In this document: positions 29,293 through 42,005 of the stretch, piece by piece
Layout: each line of letters opens with the position of its first letter
How positions within the stretch are numbered: position 1 is the stretch's first letter
Origin: Chloroflexota bacterium
GTDB lineage: Bacteria > Chloroflexota > UBA11872
Length of the DNA: 64,000 bases
Reading direction: 5' to 3'
Assembly: GCA_026707585.1 (NCBI GenBank)
Contig: JAPOWQ010000029.1
Location: forward strand, 62,001 to 126,000
Position numbers and translations under genes: made by a program
The notes under the pieces: generated by a model
Seen by the model: the letters and a program-made list of their open reading frames with translations, nothing else
Told to the model about the DNA's origin: nothing
Databases searched by the model: none

Positions 29293-30018
29293 CTACCACT
29301 CATGGCCGGACTCCCGAAGGCTGACGAAGCCGCCGGCGCCGCGGGCGACGACGATGTGGTCGAGCACCTTGATGCCGAGCAGGTTGCCGGCTTCGGCGGC
29401 GCGGCGGGTGAGGGCGACATCCTGCGGCGAGGGGGTGGGGTCGCCGCTGGGGTGGTTGTGGGCCAGCAGGAGCGCGGTGCAGCCGATGCGGACGGCCTCC
29501 TGAAACAGATCCGCCATGCGGGCGTTGACGGCGTTGACGGCGCCCTGGGCGACCTGGCGGACGCGGAGGACGCGATGGCGGGTATCGAGCAGCACCACGA
29601 CCAGACGCTCGTCGCTGGCGTCGTTGAGATGGCCGGCCAGCACGCGGGCGGCGTCCGCAGGGCTCTCGATGGCGGGGCGCTCACCGGCGGCCTCGATCTG
29701 GAGGCGGCGGGCGAGTTCGAGGGCGGCTTTGATCTCGGCTGCCTTGGCCAGGCCGACGCCGTGGACGGTGGTGAGCTCGTCGATGGTGGCGTCGGAGAGC
29801 CCGCGAAGGGAAGCGAATTTGGCCAGGAGGGCCTGGGCGAGTTCGAGGGCGCTGCCCTGGGATGAGCCGGAGCGGAGGATGAGGGCGAGGAGTTCATGGT
29901 CGCTGAGGCTGGAGGTGCCGTCGCGGGCGAGGCGTTCGCGGGGTCGGCGGGACGCGTCGATCTCGCGGATGCGGACGCCGTAGCCCGGTCGAGGTTGCCG
30001 CCCGGTTTCCCCCGTCAC
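29293..30018 (-). CDS. radC: RadC family JAB1/MPN domain protein
   Basis: 241 aa. N-terminal helix-hairpin-helix region (ELTTVHGVGLAKAAEIKAALELARR) and C-terminal MPN/JAMM metalloprotease-like domain with H-N-H-P-S-G-D (LLAHNHPSGDPTPSPQDVAL). The start is GTG at 30018, which overlaps the TGA of the upstream gene (GTGA). This is much shorter than the unbroken frame, whose first half merely runs antisense-in-phase through the neighbour. RadC is widespread, but its cellular job is unsettled. Confidence 0.93.
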   Translation of the reverse strand: MTGETGRQPRPGYGVRIREIDASRRPRERLARDGTSSLSDHELLALILRSGSSQGSALELAQALLAKFASLRGLSDATIDELTTVHGVGLAKAAEIKAALELARRLQIEAAGERPAIESPADAARVLAGHLNDASDERLVVVLLDTRHRVLRVRQVAQGAVNAVNARMADLFQEAVRIGCTALLLAHNHPSGDPTPSPQDVALTRRAAEAGNLLGIKVLDHIVVARGAGGFVSLRESGHEW

Positions 30019-30821
30019 CCTCCGCCGGCGGCGCGCAGGGCGCGGCCGGCGGTCTGGCGGTATTCGCGGGCACGTTCGAGGATGAGGTGGCGGATTTCCT
30101 CGTCGGAGGTCGCGCGGACGGGGCGGGCGGGGACGCCGAGGAGGAGACGTCGTTCGGAGAATTCCTTGTCCTCGCCGACCATGGCGGCGGCGCCGACGAT
30201 GGAGTGCCGGCGGATGTGGGCGCCGCTGAGGACGGTGGACTGGATGCCGATGAGGCACTCGTCCTCGATGGTGCAGGCGTGGACCACGGCCATGTGGCCG
30301 ACGGTGACGGCGGCGCCGATGACCAACGGCAGGCCAGCATCGACGTGGAGGACGCAGCCGTCCTGGATGTTGGTGCCGCGGCCGATGTGGACGGGGGCGA
30401 GGTCGGCGCGGATGACGGTGTTGTACCAGACGCTGGCGTCGTCCTCGATCCGAACGTCGCCAATGAGCTGGGCGCCGGGGGCCAGGAAGACGTTGCGGCC
30501 GATGGTGGGGACGACGCCGTTGGCGGCGTGGAGTTGGGGGCCGGGTGTGGCGGCGTCCATTTCCTGGAGGAGGGTTTCCTCCTGGAGCTGGCGGAGGTGG
30601 ACTTCGTCGAGGGTTTCGGCGGGGCGGAGGAGCATGTAGAGGAGGGCGCCGAGGGGGCCGAGGCCGAGGACGAGGAGGGGGGCGAAGAGGCGGACGTAGA
30701 TGTCCTGGGTGCGGCGGCGGATGTCCTGCCAGGCCCAGACGAAGGCGGCAGCCCAAACCGCGGCGCCAAAGGCGGCCAGCAAGGCAAGGACGATAGCGAT
30801 GGCCTGGCCGATGGACTCCAC
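30015..30821 (-). CDS. Membrane-anchored gamma-carbonic-anhydrase-like hexapeptide protein
   Basis: 268 aa, a two-part protein. Residues 1-66 hold two membrane helices in a PLDc_N-like pattern (WQDIRRRTQD, GPLGALLYMLLRP). Residues 67-92 form a charged helix. Residues about 100-250 form a left-handed beta-helix of gamma-carbonic-anhydrase type. Gamma-CA residues are present: Arg138, Asp140, Gln153, and zinc histidines 159, 176 and 181. Zinc binding is thus likely, but activity is uncertain because gamma-CA homologues are often inactive. Coupled by GTGA overlap to radC. Confidence 0.82.
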   Translation of the reverse strand: MESIGQAIAIVLALLAAFGAAVWAAAFVWAWQDIRRRTQDIYVRLFAPLLVLGLGPLGALLYMLLRPAETLDEVHLRQLQEETLLQEMDAATPGPQLHAANGVVPTIGRNVFLAPGAQLIGDVRIEDDASVWYNTVIRADLAPVHIGRGTNIQDGCVLHVDAGLPLVIGAAVTVGHMAVVHACTIEDECLIGIQSTVLSGAHIRRHSIVGAAAMVGEDKEFSERRLLLGVPARPVRATSDEEIRHLILERAREYRQTAGRALRAAGGG

Positions 30822-30889
30822 GCGCTGAGCCTGTGGGGTGGGAGTAGCCCCGAATTGTAGGCGGGAAATCGGGGGGGTCTCGTGCGCGT

Positions 30890-30913
30890 AAGAGTTTTTT
30901 CCAAAAAACTCTT
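30890..30913. other. AT-rich perfect palindrome
   Basis: AAGAGTTTTTT (30890-30900) and AAAAAACTCTT (30903-30913) form an 11-bp perfect inverted repeat with a 2-bp centre. It stands out in GC-rich DNA at the edge between the gamma-CA gene's 5' end and the repeat-rich accessory region. It could be a terminator hairpin read from either strand or a scar of element insertion. Confidence 0.6.
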
Positions 30914-30961
30914 GAGGCTGCGCGGGGTGGTTTGGGGCGGGGCCGAGGCGGGTTGGGAGAC

Positions 30962-30998
30962 GAGGACTGGATTCCGACTGAAGACGCCGGAATGACGG
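30962..30998 (+). repeat. Short hairpin repeat (GGATCCCGGC-type), AT variant
   Basis: Copy of the dispersed GACTGGATYCCGRC...GCCGGRATGACGG repeat. Here the outer arm pairs are ATTCC/GGAAT instead of ATCCC/GGGAT, a compensatory change that keeps most of the stem. Confidence 0.8.
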
Positions 30999-31164
30999 AT
31001 GGGGGCGGTGGGGTGCGTTTTGGTGGGGTTTGGGGGCCCGGGTAGGGCCGCGGGCTGGGTGGCGGGGCGGGGTTTGGCGTGGGCTGATGGGCGACCTGGG
31101 TGGGGTTGGGTTGGGGGACGGTGGTTGGGCCGGATCGGCGCGGAGGGATGGGGCCGGTGAGGAA

Positions 31165-31229
31165 CGAGGACTGGGTTCCCCTTCGGCAGGCTCAGGGCAG
31201 GTTCTCTGAAGACGCCGGGATGACGGGTT
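31165..31229 (+). repeat. Composite short repeats
   Basis: A GAGGACTGGGTTCC half and a GACGCCGGGATGACGG half of the hairpin repeat are separated by a copy of a second repeat, CTTCGGCAGGCTCAGGGCAG. One repeat family appears inserted in the other. Confidence 0.65.
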
Positions 31230-31514
31230 GCAGAAGGGGAGCGGGCGGGGAAGTGGGACCGGAAGGGGACGGGGAAGGGGCGGAGTGCGAAGAGTTCGAG
31301 AAGGGGGAGGAGGCGGTGGAGGAGCGGGAGGACGGAAGGCATTTGGAGCCGGGGTTGTGAGGTTTACTCAGATAGTGTACATTGGTGGGGAGGGGAAGGC
31401 AATAGGGGAAGGGCAGAGGGGAGTGGGTAGAGAAGTGAGAGTCGGAGGGGAGGGGGCGGTGTGCTCGGGTGGCGTGCGAGGACGGGGTGGCAGGTTGCGC
31501 GGGGATTGATCACG

Positions 31515-31550
31515 GTGCTGGGTCCCGGCCGAAGACGCCGGGATGACGGG
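31515..31550 (+). repeat. Short hairpin repeat, GGTCCCGGC variant
   Basis: GTGCTGGGTCCCGGCC...GACGCCGGGATGACGG; same family as the copies near 40 kb, with the left arm altered to GTCCCGGC. Confidence 0.75.
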
Positions 31551-31644
31551 GGGTGGGAAGGAGTGAGAGTCGGAGGGGGAGGTTGGGAGCGTTTGGACAG
31601 GCTGGGGTGCCAGGGGTGGCCTGGGTGCGCTGGGACTGATTGGG

Positions 31645-31678
31645 GTGCTGGGTCCCGGCCGAAGACGCCGGGATGACG
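31645..31678 (+). repeat. Short hairpin repeat, GGTCCCGGC variant
   Basis: Near-identical to the copy 130 bp upstream, ending in GACGCCGGGATGACG. Confidence 0.75.
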
Positions 31679-31849
31679 TTTTGGGTTGCCGGGGGTGTGG
31701 TTCGGCGGGCTCAGCAGGGGCGCAGGGGGTGCTGGGACTGATCGGGGTGCTGGGTCCCCGCCCCGGATGGGGTCCAGGGCAGGCTGGGGGAGGCTCCGCG
31801 GCAGGCGCAGGGCAGGTTCGCCGGGGACGCCGGGACGTCGTTAGTGAGT

Positions 31850-32581
31850 GGCTGGAAGTGGCTGGTGGCAATGAAGGCAGTGCAACCAGTGCATGCGTCG
31901 CGGGCGTTGATTGCGGTGCAGGGAAGGCTGGCGGGAATAGCGGAATGGGTGGGGTGCCGGTGGCCAGGTTGGATGTCGAGGGGTAGGCGAGCGTTGCGAT
32001 GTGGAGACGGCAGTCGGTTCGTTGATTAAATGCGTACGGAAAGTAGTCGGAGTGGCTGCTGGGAGGTGGAGTGGGGGATGCGGGGATCGGTGGGTTGTTG
32101 CTGGTGGTTTGTGGGGAGGTCGGAGTAGCACTGGTGTGATGGGGCGGTGGGGTGCTGGTGGACCCGCCTCCGTCGGCAGGTTCAGGACGGTTTCCGGGGA
32201 CGCCGCGGTGTAGTCGGTGGCGAGTGGTTAGTGGCTGGTGACGCAGGGGGCGGGCTGGTCGGGGCCTGGATGCGGGGTGCTCGCAACGAGAGCATTGCCG
32301 TCAGCGCAGGCGTTACCGTCGGTGCAGGGAAGGCTGGCGGGAATTGCGGAATGGGTGGGGTGCCGGTGGTCTCGTTCGATGTCGGTGGATACGCGAGCGT
32401 TACGGTGTGGAGACGCCCGTGGCTTCGTTGATGAAATGAGTACGACTAGTTATCAGCGTGGATGCCGGGAGCCGGGGTGGGGCTGAGACGCGGCATCGCG
32501 GGAGCGGGCGCAGCGTGAGCGGGTGATGGCTCGTGCTGAGGGCCGGGCCGGGCTGGCTGGGGTCGAGGGGTGAATAGGCGA
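31850..32581 (+). repeat. 731-bp tandem repeat, unit 1
   Basis: First unit of a 731/732-bp direct repeat. It contains two diverged sub-repeats of about 130 bp (A near 31905-32040, B near 32310-32446), each beginning around GCAGGGAAGGCTGGCGGGAA and ending in TTCGTTGATKAAATGMGTACG (32018 and 32424). No convincing coding frame; the open frames here are side-effects of G-rich composition. Confidence 0.88.
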
Positions 32582-33312
32582 GCGTGATGGCGGCTGGTGG
32601 CAATGTATGCCGTGCAACCAATGTGTGCATCGCCGGCGTTGATTGCGGTGCAGGGGAGGCTGGCGGGAATTGCGGAATGGGTTGGGTGCCGGTGGCCAGG
32701 TGGGATGTCGAGGGGTAGGCGAGCGTTGCGATGTGGCGACGGCAGCCGGTTCGTTGATTAAATGAGTACGGCGTGTAGTCGGAGTGGCTGCTGGGAGGTG
32801 GAGTGGGGGATGCGGGGATTGGTGGGTTGGTGCTGGTGGTTTGTGGGGAGGTCGGAGTAGCACTGGTGTGATGGGCCGGTGGGGTGCTGCTGGGTTCCCT
32901 CCGTCGGCAGGTTCAGGACGGTTTCCGGGGACGCCGCGGTGTCGTCGGTGGCGAGTGGCTAGTGGCTGGTGACGCAGGGGGCGGGCTGGTCGGGGCCTGG
33001 ATGCGGGGTGCTCGCAACGAGAGCATTGCCGTCAGCGCAGGCGTTACCGTCGGTGCAGGGAAGGCTGGCGGGAATTGCGGAATGGGTGGGGTGCCGGTGG
33101 TCTCGTTCGATGTCGGTGGATACGCGAGCGTTACGGTGTGGAGACGCCCGTGGCTTCGTTGATGAAATGAGTACGACTAGTTATCAGCGTGGATGCCGGG
33201 AGCCGGGGTGGGGCTGAGACGCGGCATCGCGGGAGCGGGCGCAGCGTGAGCGGGTGATGGCTGGTGCTGAGGGCGGGGCCGGGCTGGCTGGGGTCGAGGG
33301 GCGAACGGGCGG
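32582..33312 (+). repeat. 731-bp tandem repeat, unit 2
   Basis: Second unit, offset 731-732 bp from unit 1. Its B half (32971-33262) is almost identical to 32240-32531, so the duplication is recent. Conserved end motifs lie at 32750 and 33155. Confidence 0.88.
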
Positions 33313-33640
33313 GCTGATGGCGGGTGGTGGGCAATGAAGGCAGGGCAACCAGTGCATGCGTCGCGGGCGTTGATTGCGGTGCAGGGGAGGCTGGCGGGAA
33401 TTGCGGAATGGGTGGGGTGCCGGTGGCCAGGTGGGATGTCGAGGGGTAGGCGAGCGTTGCGATGTGGAGACGGCAGCCGGTTCGTTGATTAAATGAGTAC
33501 GGACGGTGGTCGGAGTGGCTGCTGGGAGGTGGAGTGGAGGATGCGGGGATTGGTGTGTTGGTGCTGGTGGTTTGTGGGGAGGTCGGAGTAGCACTGGTGT
33601 GATGGGGTGGTGGGGTGCTGCTGGGTCTCTTCCGTCGACT
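33313..33640 (+). repeat. 731-bp tandem repeat, partial unit 3
   Basis: Third copy, A half only, with the end motif at 33481 (731 bp after that of unit 2). It breaks off near 33625 where another repeat family (TCGGCAGGCTCAGGAC) begins. Confidence 0.85.
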
Positions 33641-33760
33641 AGCTCAGTACAGGGCTATTCGACGGGCTCTGGGCAGGTTCTTCTTCGGCAGGCTCAGGAC
33701 GGGCTTTGACGGGCTCAGGACGGGGCCCTTCGGCAGGCTCAGGAGGGGGCTTCGGGGACG
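33641..33760 (+). repeat. Cluster of CTTCGGCAGGCTCAGGAC repeats
   Basis: Several tandem or interrupted copies of a roughly 20-bp repeat (GGCAGGCTCAGGACGGG and variants, including GACGGGCTCAGGACGGG). Single copies also occur near 31183, 32167, 32898, 38810 and 40150. Confidence 0.75.
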
Positions 33761-34603
33761 CCGGGATGTCGTTGGTGGCGAGAGGTGGGTGGCTGGTGGA
33801 GGGCGCGGTGCGGGGCTGGTTGGGGTGGTGGGTTGGACCGGTTCTGGGGATGAGGGGTGCTGGCAGTGACGGCGATGCAAGCAACGCAGTCAGTGCAGGC
33901 AAAGCTTGCGAGGGTTGCGTTGTCAGCGACATGGAGACGGGGCTTGACCGGCTCATTCGTCAGACTCAGGACAGGTTCATCACGGATGGGATTGGACCTG
34001 GCCTGGGTGTTACGAGGCGAGGCGTTTGGGGCTTGTTCTTCGATTGGAAGACCCCTCATTTCGACCGCTTCCTGGTGTGCGGACTGGGGACGTCATGAAC
34101 ACTTGCTCGAAGACATAGGGAACACATTCGAAGGCAACGGGCGTAGGGGCCCTGCCGTTCGAGGATCAATCGATGACAGACCAGCGCACGGCGCTAGTGG
34201 CACCGACGCTGGCGCAGGCCAATTGAAGGCCGACTCCAGCCGAGTGATTGACGGTTTCTTGGTTGATGTTTTGAACAGCGTATCGGACGTTAGGACAGCG
34301 TAGATAAATGCTTGTATTTGGAAATCCAACTCCAATTGTATGGACGGGAGATCAATTGAATATGAGGGGTAAGAGAAAGCGATGCTAAGTATGGTGGATT
34401 TGTGGCCTGCATATGGGCTGTAAGACTCGATACGAATGAGCAAATGTAGACTGCGATCTTAGTATATTCTACTTTTTAGTACGGCTGCGTCTGTTCCCCG
34501 ACTTCCCATTGGCTAGAGTCTTCCGGACGATGACCTGCGGCAGATTCGGGAATTGCGGATGCATTTATCTTCGTCGGACCCAGGCTGGGTGATTCTTCTT
34601 GGC
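33761..34603. other. Gene-poor stretch between repeats and AT-richer island
   Basis: 33761-34090 remains G-rich with a degenerate sixth relative of the A/B sub-repeat near 33860-33960. From about 34230 the base composition becomes clearly AT-richer. No supported gene; short open frames lack a ribosome binding site and any recognisable domain. Confidence 0.5.
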
Positions 34604-35053
34604 CTACGTTGTCCAGTCCGGTCCGCCGGTAAGGAGCAAGCGCACGACGAGTCGGCGCGTGCCGTAGTGTTGTGCTCCAATCCACGCAAGGGCGGCGAGG
34701 ATAAGCACGGACGCAACGCCGAATGCCCCGCAGATCACGAGGGCTGCCAGGCGCATGTCTTTCGGCGACTGCGGCACATCGTGCCCCCGCATAGCCGGGA
34801 CTCCAAATTCGCGCTCGAGGCTGGAGTCGACTAACCGGCGTGGTGCTTCACGCTCTTCTGGCCTCGTCATGTAGGTGGTGTCGTGAAGGCTGATGAAGCC
34901 TTCACGGCGCCCGTGGGATATGCTCCCGAGCACGTACCAAGACCCATAAACGCCAATTGACACCCATGCGATCAAGGCAAAGAGGAGGTGTTGGGTGAAC
35001 TGCATCCACTGTAGGGCACCGCATGGCTGAACGGTCACTGCGTCGGGCGTCAC
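34604..35053 (-). CDS. Two-helix membrane protein, unknown function
   Basis: 149 aa from the GTG at 35053, chosen because a perfect AGGAGG lies 7 nt upstream; the frame upstream of it only shadows the neighbouring gene. Two membrane helices (around residues 15-40 and 105-130) flank a polar loop of about 65 residues, with Arg/Glu-rich segments such as RPEEREAPRRLVD. The ribosome binding site overlaps the stop of the secreted-protein gene, so the two form an operon. No family recognised. Confidence 0.65.
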   Translation of the reverse strand: MTPDAVTVQPCGALQWMQFTQHLLFALIAWVSIGVYGSWYVLGSISHGRREGFISLHDTTYMTRPEEREAPRRLVDSSLEREFGVPAMRGHDVPQSPKDMRLAALVICGAFGVASVLILAALAWIGAQHYGTRRLVVRLLLTGGPDWTT

Positions 35054-35064
35054 GGCACGTCCTC

Positions 35065-35649
35065 CTAGTCCAACTTGTCGAACGTCACGGTCCACGAAGC
35101 GGTGTCCCACGCGAACGAAACCGAAACATAGATGTTGGCCGCACCTACAACTGTTACGGGGGTGCGCACTGATCCCGTGCAGCCGAATCTCTCTCCAGTG
35201 AGGTCTTGGTGGTTTCCATCCGTGTCGTACAGAACGGCTTGGAAGTGGACTGGAGCGAAGCACCAAGTCGCCGGAGTGCTCCCCCCGTTGTTCGCCCAAG
35301 ATGTCGTCGCGAGATATCTCCCTGGACCGATCAGTCGGTATTCCGAGACATTGGGGCCAACGCCATGAATCTCGGGTGGAACGGGAATCGGAGGCGGGGG
35401 CGGAACGACGGGTGCTGGAATGGCCCACCAGAATGTTCGTCGCACATTGTCTAAATGGTCCCTTTGGCACGCTGCTTCGGCCTGATCACCAAACACGCGC
35501 TGATATATCCCGACGTTCTGGTAATTACCAAGTGCCGCTTCGGACTGATCGTTGAGAGCCACGCAAGTCGTCGGCCATTGGGCCGACGCTGCTGGGACGG
35601 CTAGTACTGCGAAGCAAAGGCTTATGCCCAGAACTCGAAGCCACCGCAT
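35065..35649 (-). CDS. Secreted protein, unknown function
   Basis: 194 aa. Clear Sec signal peptide: positively charged start, hydrophobic core and AAS-A-Q cleavage region around residues 20-25. The mature part has four to five cysteines, a Pro-rich linker (PVVPPPPPIPVPPE, about 80-93) and a C-terminal beta-rich domain with aromatic and Thr/Ser-rich strands. The ATG at 35649 has AAAGGA 8 nt upstream. It lies in the AT-richer island and pairs with the membrane protein gene downstream. No function can be assigned. Confidence 0.75.
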   Translation of the reverse strand: MRWLRVLGISLCFAVLAVPAASAQWPTTCVALNDQSEAALGNYQNVGIYQRVFGDQAEAACQRDHLDNVRRTFWWAIPAPVVPPPPPIPVPPEIHGVGPNVSEYRLIGPGRYLATTSWANNGGSTPATWCFAPVHFQAVLYDTDGNHQDLTGERFGCTGSVRTPVTVVGAANIYVSVSFAWDTASWTVTFDKLD

Positions 35650-35818
35650 CGGCGCGTCCTTTACCTGCGAATAGTCCGATCACCGCGCCCTTTTATCCAA
35701 ATGGCCGTGCATCGTCAAGAACTGCTAGACGCGCCGACTGCCACAAGCACGCTGCACATACCCTACGGGTGATGCTTGAGTCATTCACGCACCGCCCAAC
35801 CGCTCGCACATGGCCATT

Positions 35819-36473
35819 GCCCTCGACCATTTGTCGCCAGCCGTTCAGGTGCTGCTGGCGCCCAAGGAGATCCCTAGGAAGAGGTCGACGTCACCGAATG
35901 CAGCCTGTACGAGATTTCCGAGCAGATGTGGCGGTTCGTGGACGCCGCGCCGTGCAAACCCCACTGGCACCTGGAATGCAACGCCGAGCACTTCGAAACC
36001 GTCGCGTGCGAGGACATCCGCCGCCTGCTGATCAACGTTCCGCTGCGCCACACAAAGAGCTTGATGTGCGCCGTCCTGTTGACCGGGTAGACGTGGATTC
36101 AGTGGCAATGGGACTGCATGCCCCTCGTCAGCCCGCATGTCAAATTCATGTCGGCAAGCGACGCGCATTCGATCAGCATCCGGGATTCCGTGAGGTGCCG
36201 GCGGCTGATCGAGAGTCGGACCTACCAGGCGCGCTGGGGCCATTGCGTGCGGCTGACCAGCCACCAGAACACCAAGATTCGCTTTGAGAACGACCAATGC
36301 AGCTATCCCCTGGCCACGTCGGTCGGTGGGCGCTCACCGGCGAGAGCGGCGATATCATCCTCTTGGACCATCCGTACAACGTCATCGAGGCCGAAAGGTT
36401 ACGGCTGCTCCCCGATCTCCCATTGGTTAAACCGTATAGATCTGCCAAAGAGCTAGTGGCACTGCTAGGATGA
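35819..36473 (+). pseudogene. Broken phage terminase large subunit
   Basis: Pieced from three frames. LDHLSPAVQVLLAPKEI is in one frame. Then, after a shift near 35876, DIRRLLINVPLRHTKSLM (Walker A region, usually NVPPRHGKSL) leads to an in-frame TAG at 36088 and on to ISIRDSVRCRRLIES, YQARWG, NTKIRFEN and LATSVGG. A second shift near 36329 leads to ALTGESGDIILLDHPYNVIEAER, which matches the Walker B region (usually DDPHN). The order of motifs is that of tailed-phage terminases that package DNA. The Gly-to-Thr change in Walker A, the stop and the two frameshifts show it is dead. Confidence 0.82.
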
Positions 36474-36489
36474 TTCGGTGGACCGAATC
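36472..36489. promoter_or_regulatory. Perfect 18-bp palindrome, operator-like
   Basis: GATTCGGT-GG-ACCGAATC, 8-bp arms with a 2-bp centre, between the terminase remnant and the AbiJ-like gene. It could be a repressor site of the former phage or of the defence gene. No regulator gene is seen next to it. Confidence 0.4.
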
Positions 36490-36663
36490 GACGAAGTTTG
36501 CTATTAGATTCATAAATCATCGAAGGCATCCGTCCTGTTGTCTCTGGCGTTGTCAAGTGATCATGAAGTTAAGGTCTTATGGACATCCTATTCGAAACTG
36601 TCACGTCTCTAATTGTCTGTGCGGACGGCAACAAGTGGCCGCCCGAAGGATCAAATGTATCAA

Positions 36664-36672
36664 TGGTATGAT
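36664..36672 (+). promoter_or_regulatory. Possible extended -10 promoter for the AbiJ-like gene
   Basis: TGGTATGAT (TG-n-TATGAT) lies 36 bp before the GTG at 36708. No good -35 box is seen at 17 bp. A GGAGG ribosome binding site lies between it and the start. Confidence 0.35.
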
Positions 36673-36707
36673 GACGCTCTAGCAGCACTGAGAAGGCGGA
36701 GGTTTAC

Positions 36708-37655
36708 GTGCGGCACTTTAGTGAACGGGAACTTGGTGCTTTTCCGAGGGAAAAGACTGAAGTGAGTAGGACCGTATGGGATGGTTTAGCTCAACTTGTC
36801 GACAGCCTAGTAGATGACGGATCTTTAGGTGCAGGATTTCCTGACTATTGCCGAGATTCAGGTTCGGTGTGTTGCGGTACCAATAGGCATAAATTCGAGG
36901 TGGCAATAGCGGCGGTGATTCCTGAATTGGTAGACGGTGCCTGGATGCGAGGGTGGGGGATTACGGCCATCGAGCAACCGCCTATATATGCCATCATGGA
37001 CGTTCTTGAATTTGTTTGGCAGAACGTCGGACAGCCCGTCCTAGGCCGTCGTCACGAGTACTATGAGCATTATCATTTTTTGCAATTTGACGTGAAGGAT
37101 GGTCAAGAAAGATTTAGAGAAAATGTAAACTCCATTCTGAATCGTAATAGATTAGCATTTACTATGACTTCGGATGGCAAAATGAAGCGCCTTTTGCCAA
37201 TTGAATTCTCATCCGTATTGCGAAGAAGCGCATTTGTGACAGGAGACAGTGAGCTTGACAATATGATCGAAACTGCTCGTCGGAAGTTTCTACAACCGGA
37301 TGAGGGTGAGCGACGAGAGGCTGTAGAGAAGCTTTGGGATGCTTGGGAGAGAGTCAAGACGGTTCAGCATAGCGACAAAAGGATCGGTGCCAAGATGATT
37401 CTGGACACCGCAGCTAACTCATGTGTATCAGAATTTAGACAGCTTCTTGAAGCGGAGGCGTTGACGCTAACGAACGCCGGAAACAAGTTCCGAATTCGAC
37501 ATTCGGAGACAAGCCAGGAACAGTTGCAGTCGCCTGAGCATGTGGACTACCTGTTCCTTCGGATGTTTTCACTTCTTAATCTAATCTTGACTTCGCTATT
37601 TCCGAAACAGACTTCGGGGAAAGTGAACAAGGCACCAGACAAGAGCCTTTTCTAG
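36708..37655 (+). CDS. AbiJ-like abortive-infection candidate (AbiJ_NTD4/HEPN-type)
   Basis: 315 aa, GTG start with GGAGG 5 nt upstream. The N-terminus (RHFSERELG...VSRTVWDGLAQLV) resembles the AbiJ_NTD4 module. The middle has the motif RFRENVNSILNRNRLAF followed by MKRLLP, and the end (IRHSETSQEQLQSPEHVDYLFLRMFSLLNLIL) resembles the HEPN-like C-terminus of abortive-infection proteins. The R-H pair followed by polar residues could be an RNase site. Codons are visibly AT-richer than in flanking genes, and it sits beside a dead prophage gene, so transfer is likely. Function by likeness only. Confidence 0.6.
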   Translation: MRHFSERELGAFPREKTEVSRTVWDGLAQLVDSLVDDGSLGAGFPDYCRDSGSVCCGTNRHKFEVAIAAVIPELVDGAWMRGWGITAIEQPPIYAIMDVLEFVWQNVGQPVLGRRHEYYEHYHFLQFDVKDGQERFRENVNSILNRNRLAFTMTSDGKMKRLLPIEFSSVLRRSAFVTGDSELDNMIETARRKFLQPDEGERREAVEKLWDAWERVKTVQHSDKRIGAKMILDTAANSCVSEFRQLLEAEALTLTNAGNKFRIRHSETSQEQLQSPEHVDYLFLRMFSLLNLILTSLFPKQTSGKVNKAPDKSLF

Positions 37656-38242
37656 GCGGTGGACTGGCTGGACCGCATCACGAGCCATGCCTATCTTTGT
37701 GTAGTTTGCTGAGTTCGAGGATGAGTGCGAGAGATTCGGTGTCATGGAAGAGCGTCTACGAGGGCCAGAGGCGGTGGTCGGAGATGGGGGGCGGTGGCTA
37801 GGTGGTGGCGGAGGTTTGTGAGGTTGAGGAGTTTGAGGACATTGGCAAGGGAATCGTCGAGGGCGTGGCGGGCCGGGCCGTGTGAGGCGGAAGACTGGAT
37901 CCGGCTGAAGACGCTGGAATGGCGGAGCGGCCTGAGGACGCGGGGGGCACGGTTGCGAATCACCTGTCACACCGACTGCGGATTTCTGTCGCCGGATTCT
38001 CTAGGGAGAGTTCGTCTGGGGAGGCGAGCCGTGGGCGTGAAGAGCGTCGCCTGTATTTGGTCCGCCGGCCATTGTTGCACCCGGTATGGCCGCACTAGAC
38101 TTGGGGGTGCGACTCAGTCGAAAGGAGGATGAGCGGGTTTCAGAGTTGACATAACGATTGACGAAACCGATTTGAATTGTCTGGTAATTGATCAAGTGAC
38201 GAGCCGCGACCGTCGGTCGCTAACAGAAGTGGAGATTCCTCC
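37656..38242. other. Repeat-bearing intergenic region
   Basis: G-rich, non-coding by eye apart from the hairpin repeat at 37887-37925. From about 38140 the sequence turns AT-richer again. A short palindrome GCGAC-CGTCG-GTCGC (38206-38220) precedes a possible small ORF. Confidence 0.45.
37887..37925 (+). repeat. Short hairpin repeat, degenerate copy
   Basis: GCGGAAGACTGGATCCGGC...GACGCTGGAATGGCGG. The arms have decayed: a C is missing on the left and the right arm has CTGGAAT. Confidence 0.7.
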
Positions 38243-38329
38243 ATGAAGAACAAACCAAGCTGGCGCGAAGTGCTGAACAACCTCGCCAAGCTCGCGATTG
38301 CCATTCTGCGTTCCGTCAACGGAGAGTAG
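38243..38329 (+). CDS. Possible 28-residue peptide gene
   Basis: ATG at 38243 opens a 28-codon frame (MKNKPSWREVLNNLAKLAIA... ending NGE). It has a Lys-rich start and a Leu/Ile/Ala amphipathic or membrane-seeking helix. GTGGAG lies about 10 nt upstream. A long perfect hairpin (38339-38374) begins 10 bp after the stop. The composition differs from the flanking repeats. It could be a small membrane peptide or type I toxin-like product, or chance. Confidence 0.4.
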   Translation: MKNKPSWREVLNNLAKLAIAILRSVNGE

Positions 38330-38338
38330 GCCCCTGCC

Positions 38339-38374
38339 CTGCCCCCGGTGGCTTACCGGAGTCGCCGGGGGCAG
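38339..38374 (+). terminator. Strong hairpin after the 28-aa ORF
   Basis: CTGCCCCCGG (38339-38348) pairs perfectly with CCGGGGGCAG (38365-38374). The 16-nt loop contains a partner for an alternative CCGGT/ACCGG stem. No T-run follows, so it is terminator-like rather than a certain intrinsic terminator. Confidence 0.5.
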
Positions 38375-38724
38375 GCTCGACCAACCACCAGACGAGACGG
38401 CGCTACCACCCGCCGCCCAACGCCATGCGCTTCGCATAACGCACCTCGTCTGGCTGCGCGCGAGAGCCAGCCCTCATTAAGAACCTGGAAAGCGGCGCGA
38501 AGGTTGGGCAGTTTTTGGAATGGTTTCCGGGCGTTGGGGCCTGGCAGGTTCGAGCGGTGCTGGAAGACGAAGCGGAGGGGGCGGGTTAGGGGCACGGCGG
38601 CTGGGAGCTGGAGCGGCGAGGTGGGGGAAGGGGGGCGAGCGAGCGCGGGTCCCAGGCTGCGCGCAGCCTGGGCCACAAGGCACGGCAGCGTGGGCGACAA
38701 GGCATGAGCGGTAGGGCATCGGGA

Positions 38725-38765
38725 GCGGAGGACTGGATCGCGGCTGGGGACGCCGGGATGACGGA
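38725..38765 (+). repeat. Short hairpin repeat copy
   Basis: GCGGAGGACTGGATCGCGGC...GACGCCGGGATGACGG, with one mismatch in the left arm (ATCGCGGC). Confidence 0.8.
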
Positions 38766-39029
38766 GGGATGGCGGGGTGCGGGAAGAGGCCGGATTGGGA
38801 TCGGGGCCCACTCGGCAAGCTCAGGGCAGGTTCAAAGCACGATGAAGCGCACGACCGGAAGACGGGCGGGTCGGGGACGCCGCCCCTACGCAAGACTCGG
38901 GGACGCCGGGGGGTGGGAGTGGCGACGTGGGGGGAGGGGGGCGAGCGAGCGCGGGGATGACGGAATGGCCCGGAGAGCTGGGGTGGCGTGGAGGTCGGGG
39001 TGGCCGAGTGCGCCGGGGTCTTCTGGGTG

Positions 39030-39063
39030 CTGCTGGGTCCCGGCCGGGGACGCCGGGATGGCG
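39030..39063 (+). repeat. Short hairpin repeat, GGTCCCGGC variant
   Basis: GCTGCTGGGTCCCGGCC...GACGCCGGGATGGCG, as in the copies near 31.5 kb. Confidence 0.72.
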
Positions 39064-39161
39064 TAGGGGCGGGGATGACGGGGCGGGGCGGGGTTTTGGG
39101 GGAGCCTATAGTTGATGGTGCCCGGTGGATGGGGGGCACGTATTCAGGCAGAGGGAGGGGC

Positions 39162-40139
39162 ATGCTTCGGAAGAGACTGTCGCTGGATGAGGCGACGCGG
39201 TTGAAGGACCTGAGTGGGAAGACTTATATCGTGACCGGCGCGAACTCGGGTGTCGGCCTGGAGACGACTCGCCAGCTGGTCAGGCAGGGCGGACACGTGG
39301 TGCTGGCCTGCCGGAGAACGGACGCAGGCGAAGCGGCCGCGCGGAGTTTCAGCGGTCTGAAGGGCAGCCACGAGGTGATGCGGCTGGACCTGGCCGATCT
39401 TCAGTCGGTCCGGGACTTTGTGGCGGCGTTCACTTCGGATCACGACCGACTGGATGGCCTGGCGTGCAATGCCGGACTGGTGTCGATGGGCAGGGCTCCC
39501 GAATACACGACGGACGGACTGGAAATGACCATCGCGGTGAGCTATTTCGGTCACTTCCTGCTCACGGAGTTGATGCTGGACACGTTGCGGGCGAGTGCGC
39601 CCTCACGCATGGCGATCGTCTCATCGGTGGTGCATGCCGGCAGCGCCAAGAACCGGCCGAATGTGCACCTCGACGATCTGAACTACAGGCGCCGGGATTT
39701 CCGCGGCTTCGCCGCGTATGCCGAGGCGAAGGTGGCAACTGTCCTCTACGCAAAGGAACTGGCCGAACGACTTGACGGCACGGGCGTGAGCGTCTTCTCG
39801 CTTCACCCGGGGTGGGCCAGGTCGAACTTCGGGTCGGGTGGCAGCCTGCCGATTCGGGTCGCCATGGCCGTCATGCGGCCGCTCAGCCGACTGGTCTCCG
39901 ACAGCAATGAGGAATCGGCGCAGACGACGCTGCACTGCCTGCTGTCGGATAGCGCGGCGGACCATTCGGGCGCCTATTTCAGCCAGAGCAGTGTGCTGTA
40001 CCGGGATAAGCCGTGCCGCCAAGGCGGGTGGCCGATGGAGACCCCGAATCCGAACGCCAAGAACATGGAGACCGCCAGGCGATTGGTGGACTTGAGTTAT
40101 GAGGTGGTGGGGTTGGGCGCGGCCGAAGGGGCTGTCTGA
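39162..40139 (+). CDS. Short-chain dehydrogenase/reductase
   Basis: 325 aa from the ATG at 39162, preceded by GAGGGAGGGG; longer frames only run back through repeats. NAD(P)-binding motif IVTGANSGVGLET (residues about 24-36), CNAG, the catalytic Ser region IVSSVVHAG, and Y-A-E-A-K for the Tyr/Lys pair. It resembles the retinol-dehydrogenase/protochlorophyllide-reductase-like SDR group (C-terminal HPGWARSNFG). Substrate unknown. It stands alone between repeat stretches. Confidence 0.9.
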   Translation: MLRKRLSLDEATRLKDLSGKTYIVTGANSGVGLETTRQLVRQGGHVVLACRRTDAGEAAARSFSGLKGSHEVMRLDLADLQSVRDFVAAFTSDHDRLDGLACNAGLVSMGRAPEYTTDGLEMTIAVSYFGHFLLTELMLDTLRASAPSRMAIVSSVVHAGSAKNRPNVHLDDLNYRRRDFRGFAAYAEAKVATVLYAKELAERLDGTGVSVFSLHPGWARSNFGSGGSLPIRVAMAVMRPLSRLVSDSNEESAQTTLHCLLSDSAADHSGAYFSQSSVLYRDKPCRQGGWPMETPNPNAKNMETARRLVDLSYEVVGLGAAEGAV

Positions 40140-40220
40140 GACACGGGCCCCGTTCGGCAAGCTCAGGACGGGCCGCCGAGGGACTTCGAACCGGCTCACC
40201 ACGTGCGGGTGGGCGGCGCG

Positions 40221-40262
40221 AGCGGAGGACTGGATCCCGGCTGAGGACGCCGGGATGACGGG
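40221..40262 (+). repeat. Short hairpin repeat copy, downstream of GIY-YIG gene
   Basis: AGCGGAGGACTGGATCCCGGC...GACGCCGGGATGACGG; arms ATCCCGGC/GCCGGGAT pair perfectly over a 7-nt loop. Confidence 0.88.
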
Positions 40263-40301
40263 GGGATGGCGGACGGCGGGTGTCGGTTGGGGACGGTGGG
40301 T

Positions 40302-40343
40302 GCGCGGAGGACTGGATCCCGGCTGGGGACGCCGGGATGACGG
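40302..40343 (+). repeat. Short hairpin repeat copy, 18 bp from GIY-YIG stop
   Basis: GCGCGGAGGACTGGATCCCGGC...GACGCCGGGATGACGG, perfect stem, same orientation as the copy 80 bp away. Confidence 0.88.
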
Positions 40344-40361
40344 AGGGGATGACGGGGGTGG

Positions 40362-40664
40362 TTAGAGGATTTCCTGGTAGAGGTCGCGCCAGTCTGGGTT
40401 GGCCTTTTCGATCAGTTCGAGTTTCCAAGCCCGGCGCCAACCCTTGATGGTCTTCTCGCGCTGGATGGCGCTCTCCATGGTGGAATGCACTTCGTACCAG
40501 ACGAGGCGGTGGACGCCGTACTTTCGGGTGAAGCCAGGGACGAGGTCGGCTCTGTGCTGCCAGATGCGTCCCGGCAGATCCGAGGTCACACCAACGTAAA
40601 GGGTGCCGTTGCGCTGGCTGGCCAGGATGTAAACGCAGGGGATCTTGGGGTCGCGCGGGGACAT
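40362..40664 (-). CDS. GIY-YIG nuclease superfamily protein
   Basis: 100 aa. The GIY-YIG pair is CVYILASQRNGTLYVG, followed by the Arg in GRIWQHRADLVPGFTRKYGVHRLVWYE, a Glu in MESAIQREKTIKGWRRAWKLELIEKANPDW, and the usual C-terminal W-R-D-L-Y. It belongs to the small stand-alone UPF0213/YhbQ-like group whose role is not settled. Direct copies of the dispersed hairpin repeat flank it on both sides (40221 and 40302 downstream; 40754 and 40861 upstream), which hints at a link between nuclease and repeat. Confidence 0.93.
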   Translation of the reverse strand: MSPRDPKIPCVYILASQRNGTLYVGVTSDLPGRIWQHRADLVPGFTRKYGVHRLVWYEVHSTMESAIQREKTIKGWRRAWKLELIEKANPDWRDLYQEIL

Positions 40665-40753
40665 GGCGAGATCGTAGGTGGAGGAATCTTGAGAATAAGT
40701 GAGGTTTGAGACGGTATGCGGTTTTGAAGGGATTGGCGGGTCGGGACGGTGGG

Positions 40754-40797
40754 AGCGCGGCGGACTGGATCCCGGCTGGGGACGCCGGGATGACGGA
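40754..40797 (+). repeat. Short hairpin repeat copy, 90 bp upstream of GIY-YIG gene
   Basis: AGCGCGGCGGACTGGATCCCGGC...GACGCCGGGATGACGG, perfect stem. Confidence 0.88.
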
Positions 40798-40860
40798 GGG
40801 TGAAGACGGCGGAATGACGGACGGGCGGGAAGGGACGGAGGGGGTGCTGGGGTTTGATGG

Positions 40861-40906
40861 GTGCGCGGAAGACTGGATCCCGGCTGGGGACGCCGGGATG
40901 ACGGAG
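40861..40906 (+). repeat. Short hairpin repeat copy next to aroB stop
   Basis: GTGCGCGGAAGACTGGATCCCGGC...GACGCCGGGATGACGG, 23 bp beyond the end of aroB; the hairpin may help end aro-operon transcripts. Confidence 0.88.
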
Positions 40907-40928
40907 GGATGACGGGGGCGGGGTTGGT

Positions 40929-42005
40929 TTAGGGGGTGGAGGCGAGGTTGTGGACGATGGTGGAGACGAGGGTGGGGTTGAGTTTGTTGTTGACGGTGGC
41001 GTGGCCGAGGGTGGTGGGGAGGACCCAGCGGATGATGCCGTTTTGGACTTTTTTGTCGCGGAGCATGGCGTCGAGTACGTGGGAGGGGTCGACGCCGGAG
41101 AACGTGTCGGGGAGGCCGACGGCGGCGAGGAGGTTGTTCTGGCGCGTGAGGTCGGCTGCGGACCAGTGGCCGGATTGTTGGGCGAGGCGGCCGGCGCCGA
41201 CCATGCCGATGGCGACGGCTTCGCCATGCCGATAGGCGCCGTAGCCGGCGACGGTCTCGATGGCGTGGGCGATGGTGTGGCCGTAGTTGAGGATGGCGCG
41301 GATGCCGCGGTCCTCGGGATCTTCATCAACCACTTTGGCCTTCCAGCGGACGCAGCGTTCGACGAGTTCGGCAAGAAGGGCGGGGTCGTCGAGGCGGTGG
41401 GTTGAGGCTTCGATGAGGTCGAAGAGGTCGGCGTCGAAGATGACGGCGGTCTTGATGACTTCGGCGTAGTCGGCGATGAGCTGGGGGCGGGGCAGGGTGG
41501 CGAGGGCGTCGGGATCGATGATGACGCGGTGGGCGGGGTAGAAGGCGCCGACGAGGTTTTTGCCGGCGGGCAGGTCGACGGCGACTTTGCCGCCGATGCT
41601 GCTGTCGATCTGGGCGAGCAGGGTGGTGGGGATCTGGACGAGGGGGATGCCGCGGGCGTAGGTGGCGGCGACGAAGCCGATGAGGTCGCCGGCGACTCCG
41701 CCGCCGAGGGCGATGAGGGGTTCCTTGCGCTCGGCGCGCTCGGCGGCGAGCCAGTCATAAAGGTCGGCGGCGACGTGGAGGGACTTGCTCTCCTCGCCGG
41801 GGGGGAAGGTGTAGGCGCGGACCTGGAGGCCTGAGGCGGTGAGGGCGTGGGTGACGCGGTCACCGAGGAGGTCCATGACGACGGTGTCGGCGCAGAGGAA
41901 GACGCGGCGGGTGGGGGCGATTTCCTTGACGATTTGGCCGGCGTGGGTGAGGGCGCGGCGGGCGATGGTGATGCCCTGGAGGGACTTTGGAGAAGCCTCA
42001 GCCAT
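40929..42005 (-). CDS. aroB: 3-dehydroquinate synthase
   Basis: 358 aa, family length. Converts DAHP to 3-dehydroquinate in the shikimate pathway (NAD and metal dependent). Visible are the NAD loop ALGGGVAGDLIGF, PTTLLAQIDSSIGGKVAVDLPAGKNLVGAFYPA, and the metal ligands Glu in YAEVIKTA and His in LNYGHTIAHAIE, as well as HGEAVAIG. Last gene of the aro operon, separated from aroK by 276 bp that carry two palindromic repeats. Confidence 0.97.
   Translation of the reverse strand: MAEASPKSLQGITIARRALTHAGQIVKEIAPTRRVFLCADTVVMDLLGDRVTHALTASGLQVRAYTFPPGEESKSLHVAADLYDWLAAERAERKEPLIALGGGVAGDLIGFVAATYARGIPLVQIPTTLLAQIDSSIGGKVAVDLPAGKNLVGAFYPAHRVIIDPDALATLPRPQLIADYAEVIKTAVIFDADLFDLIEASTHRLDDPALLAELVERCVRWKAKVVDEDPEDRGIRAILNYGHTIAHAIETVAGYGAYRHGEAVAIGMVGAGRLAQQSGHWSAADLTRQNNLLAAVGLPDTFSGVDPSHVLDAMLRDKKVQNGIIRWVLPTTLGHATVNNKLNPTLVSTIVHNLASTP

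Follow-up and report, generated by a model that had tools for sequence, protein, structure and literature searches.

The window analysed here, a stretch of 64,000 nucleotides from a Chloroflexota genome, carries at positions 36708-37655 a gene that, by its profile matches, is an ordinary member of PDC-S32, an already-named family of candidate phage-defence genes. On balance, we slightly favour the reading that this gene is an intact, solitary and horizontally acquired member of the family, which would act as a one-gene abortive-infection system with a candidate RNase domain.

The gene and the signal that precedes it are the following:

36708-37655, forward strand: PDC-S32/AbiJ_NTD4-like gene, 315 amino acids, GTG start, matched by PADLOC PDLC04995 and by phrog_20667.
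36698-36702, forward strand: likely ribosome-binding site GGAGG, 5 nt before the GTG, read by eye.

The reading frame opens with the GTG at 36708, closes with a stop codon ending at 37655 and has no internal stop. In 500 mononucleotide shuffles of positions 36000-38500, the longest ORF always fell short of its 315 codons (maximum 304 amino acids, mean 125), and the full-length family match (E 9.9e-57) is a stronger proof than this test of length that the ORF is a gene. The ORF is a real, intact gene, as the initial annotation had it. Moreover, the composition unlike that of the host, also pointed out there, was borne out: the GC content of the gene is 47.6% versus 67.1% for the window, and, in a scan with 1262 sliding windows of 948 bp, just 0.3% had so low a GC content.

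The PADLOC model PDC-S32 (PDLC04995) aligns with residues 1-296 of the protein over model positions 1-299 of 301, so that the window protein shares its length and domain order with the family over a full-length match, with no difference noted. The same model matches all 13 members of our first alignment (A1), and a search of PHROGs returned a full-length match to phrog_20667, of unknown function (E 6.6e-46). An anti-phage role had been suggested from the sequence, and PADLOC indeed already holds this family as a phage-defence candidate. The proposed AbiJ_NTD4-like start is present at residues 4-162, where Pfam AbiJ_NTD4 (PF18863) gives 25.5 bits (E 2e-5), which is below the curated cut-off of 34; the profile scores all 13 A1 members at E <= 1, the best at 9.1e-15. 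The profile searches advised for this protein thus gave a sub-threshold AbiJ_NTD4 match and, for the other families named, none: HEPN-type and Abi_C Pfam profiles match 0 of the 13 proteins (the window protein and 12 relatives) at E <= 1, and no DUF7014 match was seen at E <= 1 in the same 13, a result that counts only if the library includes DUF7014. Searches of NCBIfam and of PDB sequences returned nothing useful for the window protein or the family, and a direct sequence match to HEPN or to a solved structure was rejected, none being found. A relation to Abi_C was likewise rejected, since a profile-profile comparison with three Abi_C proteins gave a probability of 0.2%, similarly low to the 0.1% of the PDC-S32 N-terminal domain used as a negative. 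With this failed comparison, any tie of the C-terminal domain to a particular HEPN family is tentative.

The distribution of the gene is sporadic. It is present in 1 of 13 genomes of the genus, in 2 of 101 genomes of a wider set of relatives (the source genome and G018, of the same taxonomic family) and in 5 of 400 genomes of a phylum survey. On the counts for the genus and the phylum, we rejected the idea of a core gene conserved in this lineage, which had been named at the outset as a finding that would speak against a defence candidate. By tblastn, relatives were found in 29 plasmid records, 20 of them predicted to be conjugative (best identity 43%), and in 1 of 50,697 phage records; public annotation describes many of the plasmid relatives as AbiJ-NTD4 domain-containing. 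The single protein as query found no relatives among genome contigs or viral contigs, and the A1 alignment as query found 233 in genome contigs and 11 in viral contigs, from which the best 80 of the 233 and all 11 viral ones were kept. Once truncated or duplicate rows and those interrupted by stop codons had been removed, a second alignment (A2) comprised 77 rows, namely the window protein and 76 of these 91 loci. The corresponding tree spans Pseudomonadota, Chloroflexota, Planctomycetota, Acidobacteriota, Nitrospirota, Myxococcota, Thermodesulfobacteriota, Bacillota and archaea. In it, the window protein groups with two Phycisphaerae proteins (support 96/81), and the G018 copy (locus L088) groups with a Bryobacterales copy (support 100/99). 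The two copies thus lie in different groups, which fits separate acquisitions, although the window branch is long (0.88). Taken together, these comparisons indicate that the window gene is most likely a horizontally acquired member of the family.

An AlphaFold2 model built from the 77 sequences (mean pLDDT 91.3) consists of two domains, an alpha+beta N-terminal domain and a C-terminal bundle with helices at residues 181-194, 199-220, 224-235, 241-260 and 276-297:

36717-37193, forward strand: N-terminal domain, AbiJ_NTD4-like, alpha+beta, residues 4-162 (PF18863, 25.5 bits; modelled as residues 1-168).
37236-37607, forward strand: C-terminal helical bundle, HEPN-like, residues 177-300 (AlphaFold model; AbiA 8oz7 the best fold match).

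Foldseek retrieved no solved structure at E <= 0.001, and a viral structure library gave no match at the same threshold. When residues 177-300 were compared by VIA-align with the candidates of Foldseek, the HEPN domain of AbiA (8oz7) ranked first, with a Z of 7.8 (rmsd 3.1, 106 residues aligned) that is within the range the tool deems common for helical bundles. Roquin ROQ-domain entries followed (Z 6.5-7.0), and these chains presumably include HEPN domains; a chain titled HEPN domain protein scored 5.6 and Csx1-Crn2 4.8, and unrelated helical proteins score 4-6 against the same residues. Because a Z of this size is common among helical bundles, the HEPN fold of the C-terminal domain is likely but unproven. 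The structure prediction that had been recommended yielded a confident two-domain model with AbiA HEPN in first place, at a modest Z. The N-terminal domain modelled alone (residues 1-168, pLDDT 91.6) returned no solved match, Foldseek giving nothing at E <= 0.001 and VIA-align a best Z of 3.2, and may still have a known fold.

Across the 77 sequences, twelve columns are invariant; most of them fall in the C-terminal domain, and the window protein retains every one. Among them are W210, D211, E214, R215, K217, K224, G258, N259, R264, E267 and R285 (77/77 each). His265 is kept in 76 of 77, the exception being an Asp in L046. Two motifs stand out:

37335-37358, forward strand: helix motif WDAWERVK, residues 210-217 (W, D, E, R and K in 77/77).
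37479-37508, forward strand: GNKFRIRHSE motif, residues 258-267, candidate active site (G, N, R and E in 77/77, H in 76/77).

In the model, the second motif runs from the end of helix 241-260 into the loop that follows. The canonical HEPN motif, Rx4-6H, was found in 0 of the 77 aligned proteins at any of its three spacings. Where its Arg would stand there is Gly258 at the x6 spacing and Asn259 at x5 (both 77/77), and the invariant Arg264 directly precedes His265, so that G-N-x4-R-H stands in for Rx4-6H. Several HEPN features described in the available part of PMC3710099 are nevertheless present, namely the position of the motif, the polar Asn259 (77/77) and, in the upstream helix, Asp211-x3-Arg215 (77/77), an acidic-x3-basic feature whose acidic residue is written as Glu in that text. 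The same portion of PMC3710099 describes one HEPN family that lacks the Arg and has other conserved basic residues as possible replacements. Thus, the HEPN-like end of the initial annotation holds in part: the peptide on which it was based (IRHSETSQEQ...YLFLRMFSLL, residues 263-290) is there, and the assignment is likely on a modest fold match and the position of the motif, but the protein has neither a HEPN profile match nor Rx4-6H. In the relative that carries the substitution (L046:1570-2451, Nitrospirillum iridis), the His-to-Asp change lies within GNxxxIRHxE of an otherwise intact protein, a possible inactive or altered variant. Two distant Chloroflexota relatives (L160:1243-2109 and L161:1240-2160) have an AbiJ_NTD4-like start and an NNFGIRH motif; their C-terminal domain is shorter, without the WDxxERxK helix, and they form a sister subfamily.

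The combination of AbiJ-NTD4 with an AbiJ-type HEPN domain, as presented in the accessible text of PMC3710099, resembles PDC-S32 in having an alpha+beta N-terminal domain of ~160 amino acids followed by a helical domain; by that description, the AbiJ HEPN keeps Rx4-6H, whereas PDC-S32 does not. The C-terminal HEPN domain of AbiA (8oz7) shares the x6 spacing to the His. However, AbiA keeps the Arg (RNSNPVSH) and carries a fused polymerase (PMC11077055, in the part available), whereas PDC-S32 has GN-x4-RH, with no Arg at that place and no polymerase. Aligned by eye, Abi_C (PF14355) has RNLYGTGHG where PDC-S32 has GNKFRIRHS, with the N and H at the same spacing and the Arg replaced by Gly.

In the mechanism that we slightly favour, the N-terminal AbiJ_NTD4-like domain (residues 1-165) would sense a phage component or a signal of infection, and until triggered would hold the C-terminal HEPN-like domain (177-300) silent. 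Once triggered, the C-terminal domain would cut RNA by means of D211/E214/R215/K217, K224, N259, R264, H265 and E267, and cell growth would then be arrested before phage release. A scheme of sensing and release of this kind was proposed in 2013 for Abi N-terminal domains, according to the available portion of PMC3710099. We infer antiphage defence by the PDC-S32 gene, together with phage sensing, RNase activity, growth arrest and the order of these events; in the literature searched, as far as its accessible text extends, we found no phage test of a family of PDC-S32/AbiJ_NTD4 type, and PDC-S32 and DUF7014 are unmentioned there. The HEPN domain of AbiA calls for caution on the RNase reading of PDC-S32, since it has an intact motif, shows no RNase activity in vitro and serves dimerisation, as reported in the part of PMC11077055 at hand.

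A less probable alternative, which we nonetheless take seriously, is that the C-terminal domain is HEPN-like and not a nuclease, and that it binds nucleic acid or dimerises, in which case defence, if any, would come from blocking a phage step or from scaffolding a partner enzyme. None of the 77 proteins has the canonical Arg, the HEPN of AbiA dimerises and is enzymatically inactive (PMC11077055, same portion), and relatives are linked with enzymes, AbiEii and HmaA/HmaB among them. However, there is no obvious structural need for the invariance of D211, E214, R215, K217, K224, N259, R264 and E267, or for H265 in 76 of 77, and the window gene has no adjoining partner enzyme to scaffold.

To survey the neighbours of the relatives, we took the closest ORF upstream and downstream at the 80 genome-contig loci (the best 80 of 233), 153 ORFs in all, under a longest-ORF rule in place of a gene caller, so that some are spurious. 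Counted as matches per model and not as ORFs with a match, 237 PADLOC models were hit at E <= 1e-5 by the 75 upstream ORFs (AbiEii in 10/75, HmaA in 3) and 152 by the 78 downstream ORFs (HmaB in 3, Aga_HEPN in 4, SspB in 3). In contrast, 51 ORFs beside arbitrary genes, drawn from 20 of these genomes with a single 12-kb region sampled per genome, matched 2 PADLOC models, one ORF each; this control is smaller than the 75 + 78 ORFs tested. PDC-S32 relatives are much more often next to known defence genes than the control genes are, and placement typical of anti-phage genes, as first proposed for the window gene, is thus seen in its relatives elsewhere. On plasmids, one relative lies inside a DISARM locus and another beside AbiEi/AbiEii, TIR and integrase genes; others are beside an Abi family gene, near a SIR2 gene or beside type III restriction genes.

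Two gene orders recur. In AbiEi-AbiEii-PDC-S32, AbiEi was found in 4 of 4 tested loci (L087, L093, L043 and L052) and AbiEii was confirmed in 2 of 2 (L043 and L087); the stop of the upstream ORF overlaps the PDC-S32 start by 4 bp in L075, L079, L087, L090, L093 and L094. The order HmaA-PDC-S32-HmaB was confirmed in L027, L037 and G018, with a 4-bp overlap between PDC-S32 and HmaB in the first two, and the G018 locus also has a nucleotidyltransferase/HEPN pair. Hma is named as a candidate system in the available text of the PADLOC paper (PMC8565338). In other bacteria, a protein of PDC-S32 type is encoded third in AbiE operons and second in Hma operons, and so probably also serves there as an add-on effector to larger systems; the window copy stands alone, with no AbiE or Hma partner and no partner enzyme adjoining; the two AbiEii-family genes of the source genome are on other contigs. 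A bolder proposal, which we hold to be rather doubtful, is that PDC-S32 represents a HEPN lineage in which the Arg of R-N-x5-H has become Gly and the Arg before the His replaces it (G-N-x4-R-H-x-E), used as an add-on RNase in unrelated systems, as the third gene of AbiE, where it is perhaps controlled by the nucleotidyltransferase, and as the second gene of Hma.

The same neighbours could also point to a module of toxin-antitoxin type: an AbiEii-type nucleotidyltransferase would modify the HEPN-like protein or keep it in check, much as MntA acts on HepT, and the copy in the window would either have lost this partner or rely on an unlinked one. The presence of AbiEii upstream of 10/75 relatives, preceded by AbiEi in 4/4 tested loci, the 4-bp overlap in the six loci listed above and the two AbiEii-family genes in the genome itself are all in line with this. 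We nevertheless judge it improbable, because 65/75 relatives have no adjoining AbiEii, nor does the window copy, and because AbiEi-AbiEii is a complete pair without PDC-S32. The precedent counted in its favour is the silencing of HepT through adenylylation by MntA, as described in the accessible part of PMC7641770.

The surroundings of the gene in the window comprise a phage remnant and a segment of variable content:

35878-36294, forward strand: decayed phage terminase large subunit (pseudogene), from reading of the frames and tblastn to phage terminases.
31776-38595, no strand: variable segment whose flanks are common with G008 and whose contents differ, from blastn of the G008 contig against the window.

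Frame +2 of 35700-36478 is terminase-like and broken by stops and shifts. By tblastn, the piece 35878-36084 falls in terminase genes in 8 of the 8 listed among 9 phage records found, and the ORF at 36118-36456 matches the terminase family phrog_4758 (E 0.04). The dead terminase that the initial annotation placed next to the gene is therefore confirmed, ~0.4 kb upstream; that the prophage remnant brought the PDC-S32 gene in is only a possibility. Contig C168 of G008, of the same genus, matches the window at 30761-31775 and then at 38596-41302, and between these flanks it has ~7 kb of other content, with a Tubulin_2-like gene (Pfam E 2.3e-8) and a vWA gene (Pfam E 1.6e-4, below cut-off). Since the same flanks enclose other contents in G008, the region of 31.8-38.6 kb is a variable locus in which PDC-S32 is one cargo. 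That the ORF is decaying mobile-element cargo or a fortuitous frame of no present function, to which the adjoining broken terminase, the AT-rich DNA and the long branch (0.88) could point, is very improbable, given that the open frame, the ribosome-binding site and the twelve invariant residues are all intact.

Several other elements were seen in and around this locus. In G008 (L121:3752-9980), the Tubulin_2-like gene is followed by an overlapping vWA-domain gene, with no PADLOC match; the pair is possibly another conflict or cytoskeleton-type cassette. A secreted-looking ORF lies on the reverse strand at 35065-35649, and its first third (35423-35649) is repeated at many sites in most of the genomes available for the genus, with ~67-88% identity at the DNA level, which suggests a repeated N-terminal domain specific to the lineage. 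At least five other genomes of the genus contain, at 77-84% identity, a stretch of ~117 bp that in the window lies just downstream of the PDC-S32 gene (37767-37882); it is perhaps a decayed repeat or a site prone to insertion. Upstream of the island, 32000-33629 holds large direct repeats spaced by ~731 bp, with copies 93-99% identical, in strongly G-skewed DNA. A small reverse-strand ORF at 40362-40664, near the island, has what we take to be the motif of a GIY-YIG-type endonuclease. No Rfam family was found within 30000-41000.

The domain architecture of these proteins was already predicted in 2013, as the accessible text of PMC3710099 documents, and the family is already a PADLOC candidate; the new points are the altered motif and the recurrent partnerships with AbiE and Hma. 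The window gene adds an environmental Chloroflexota member to this candidate family. If the proposed mechanism is true, PDC-S32 would cleanly test whether RNA can be cut by HEPN domains that lack the classical Arg, and its constant position within AbiE operons and within Hma operons would let one ask how single-gene effectors join larger defence systems.
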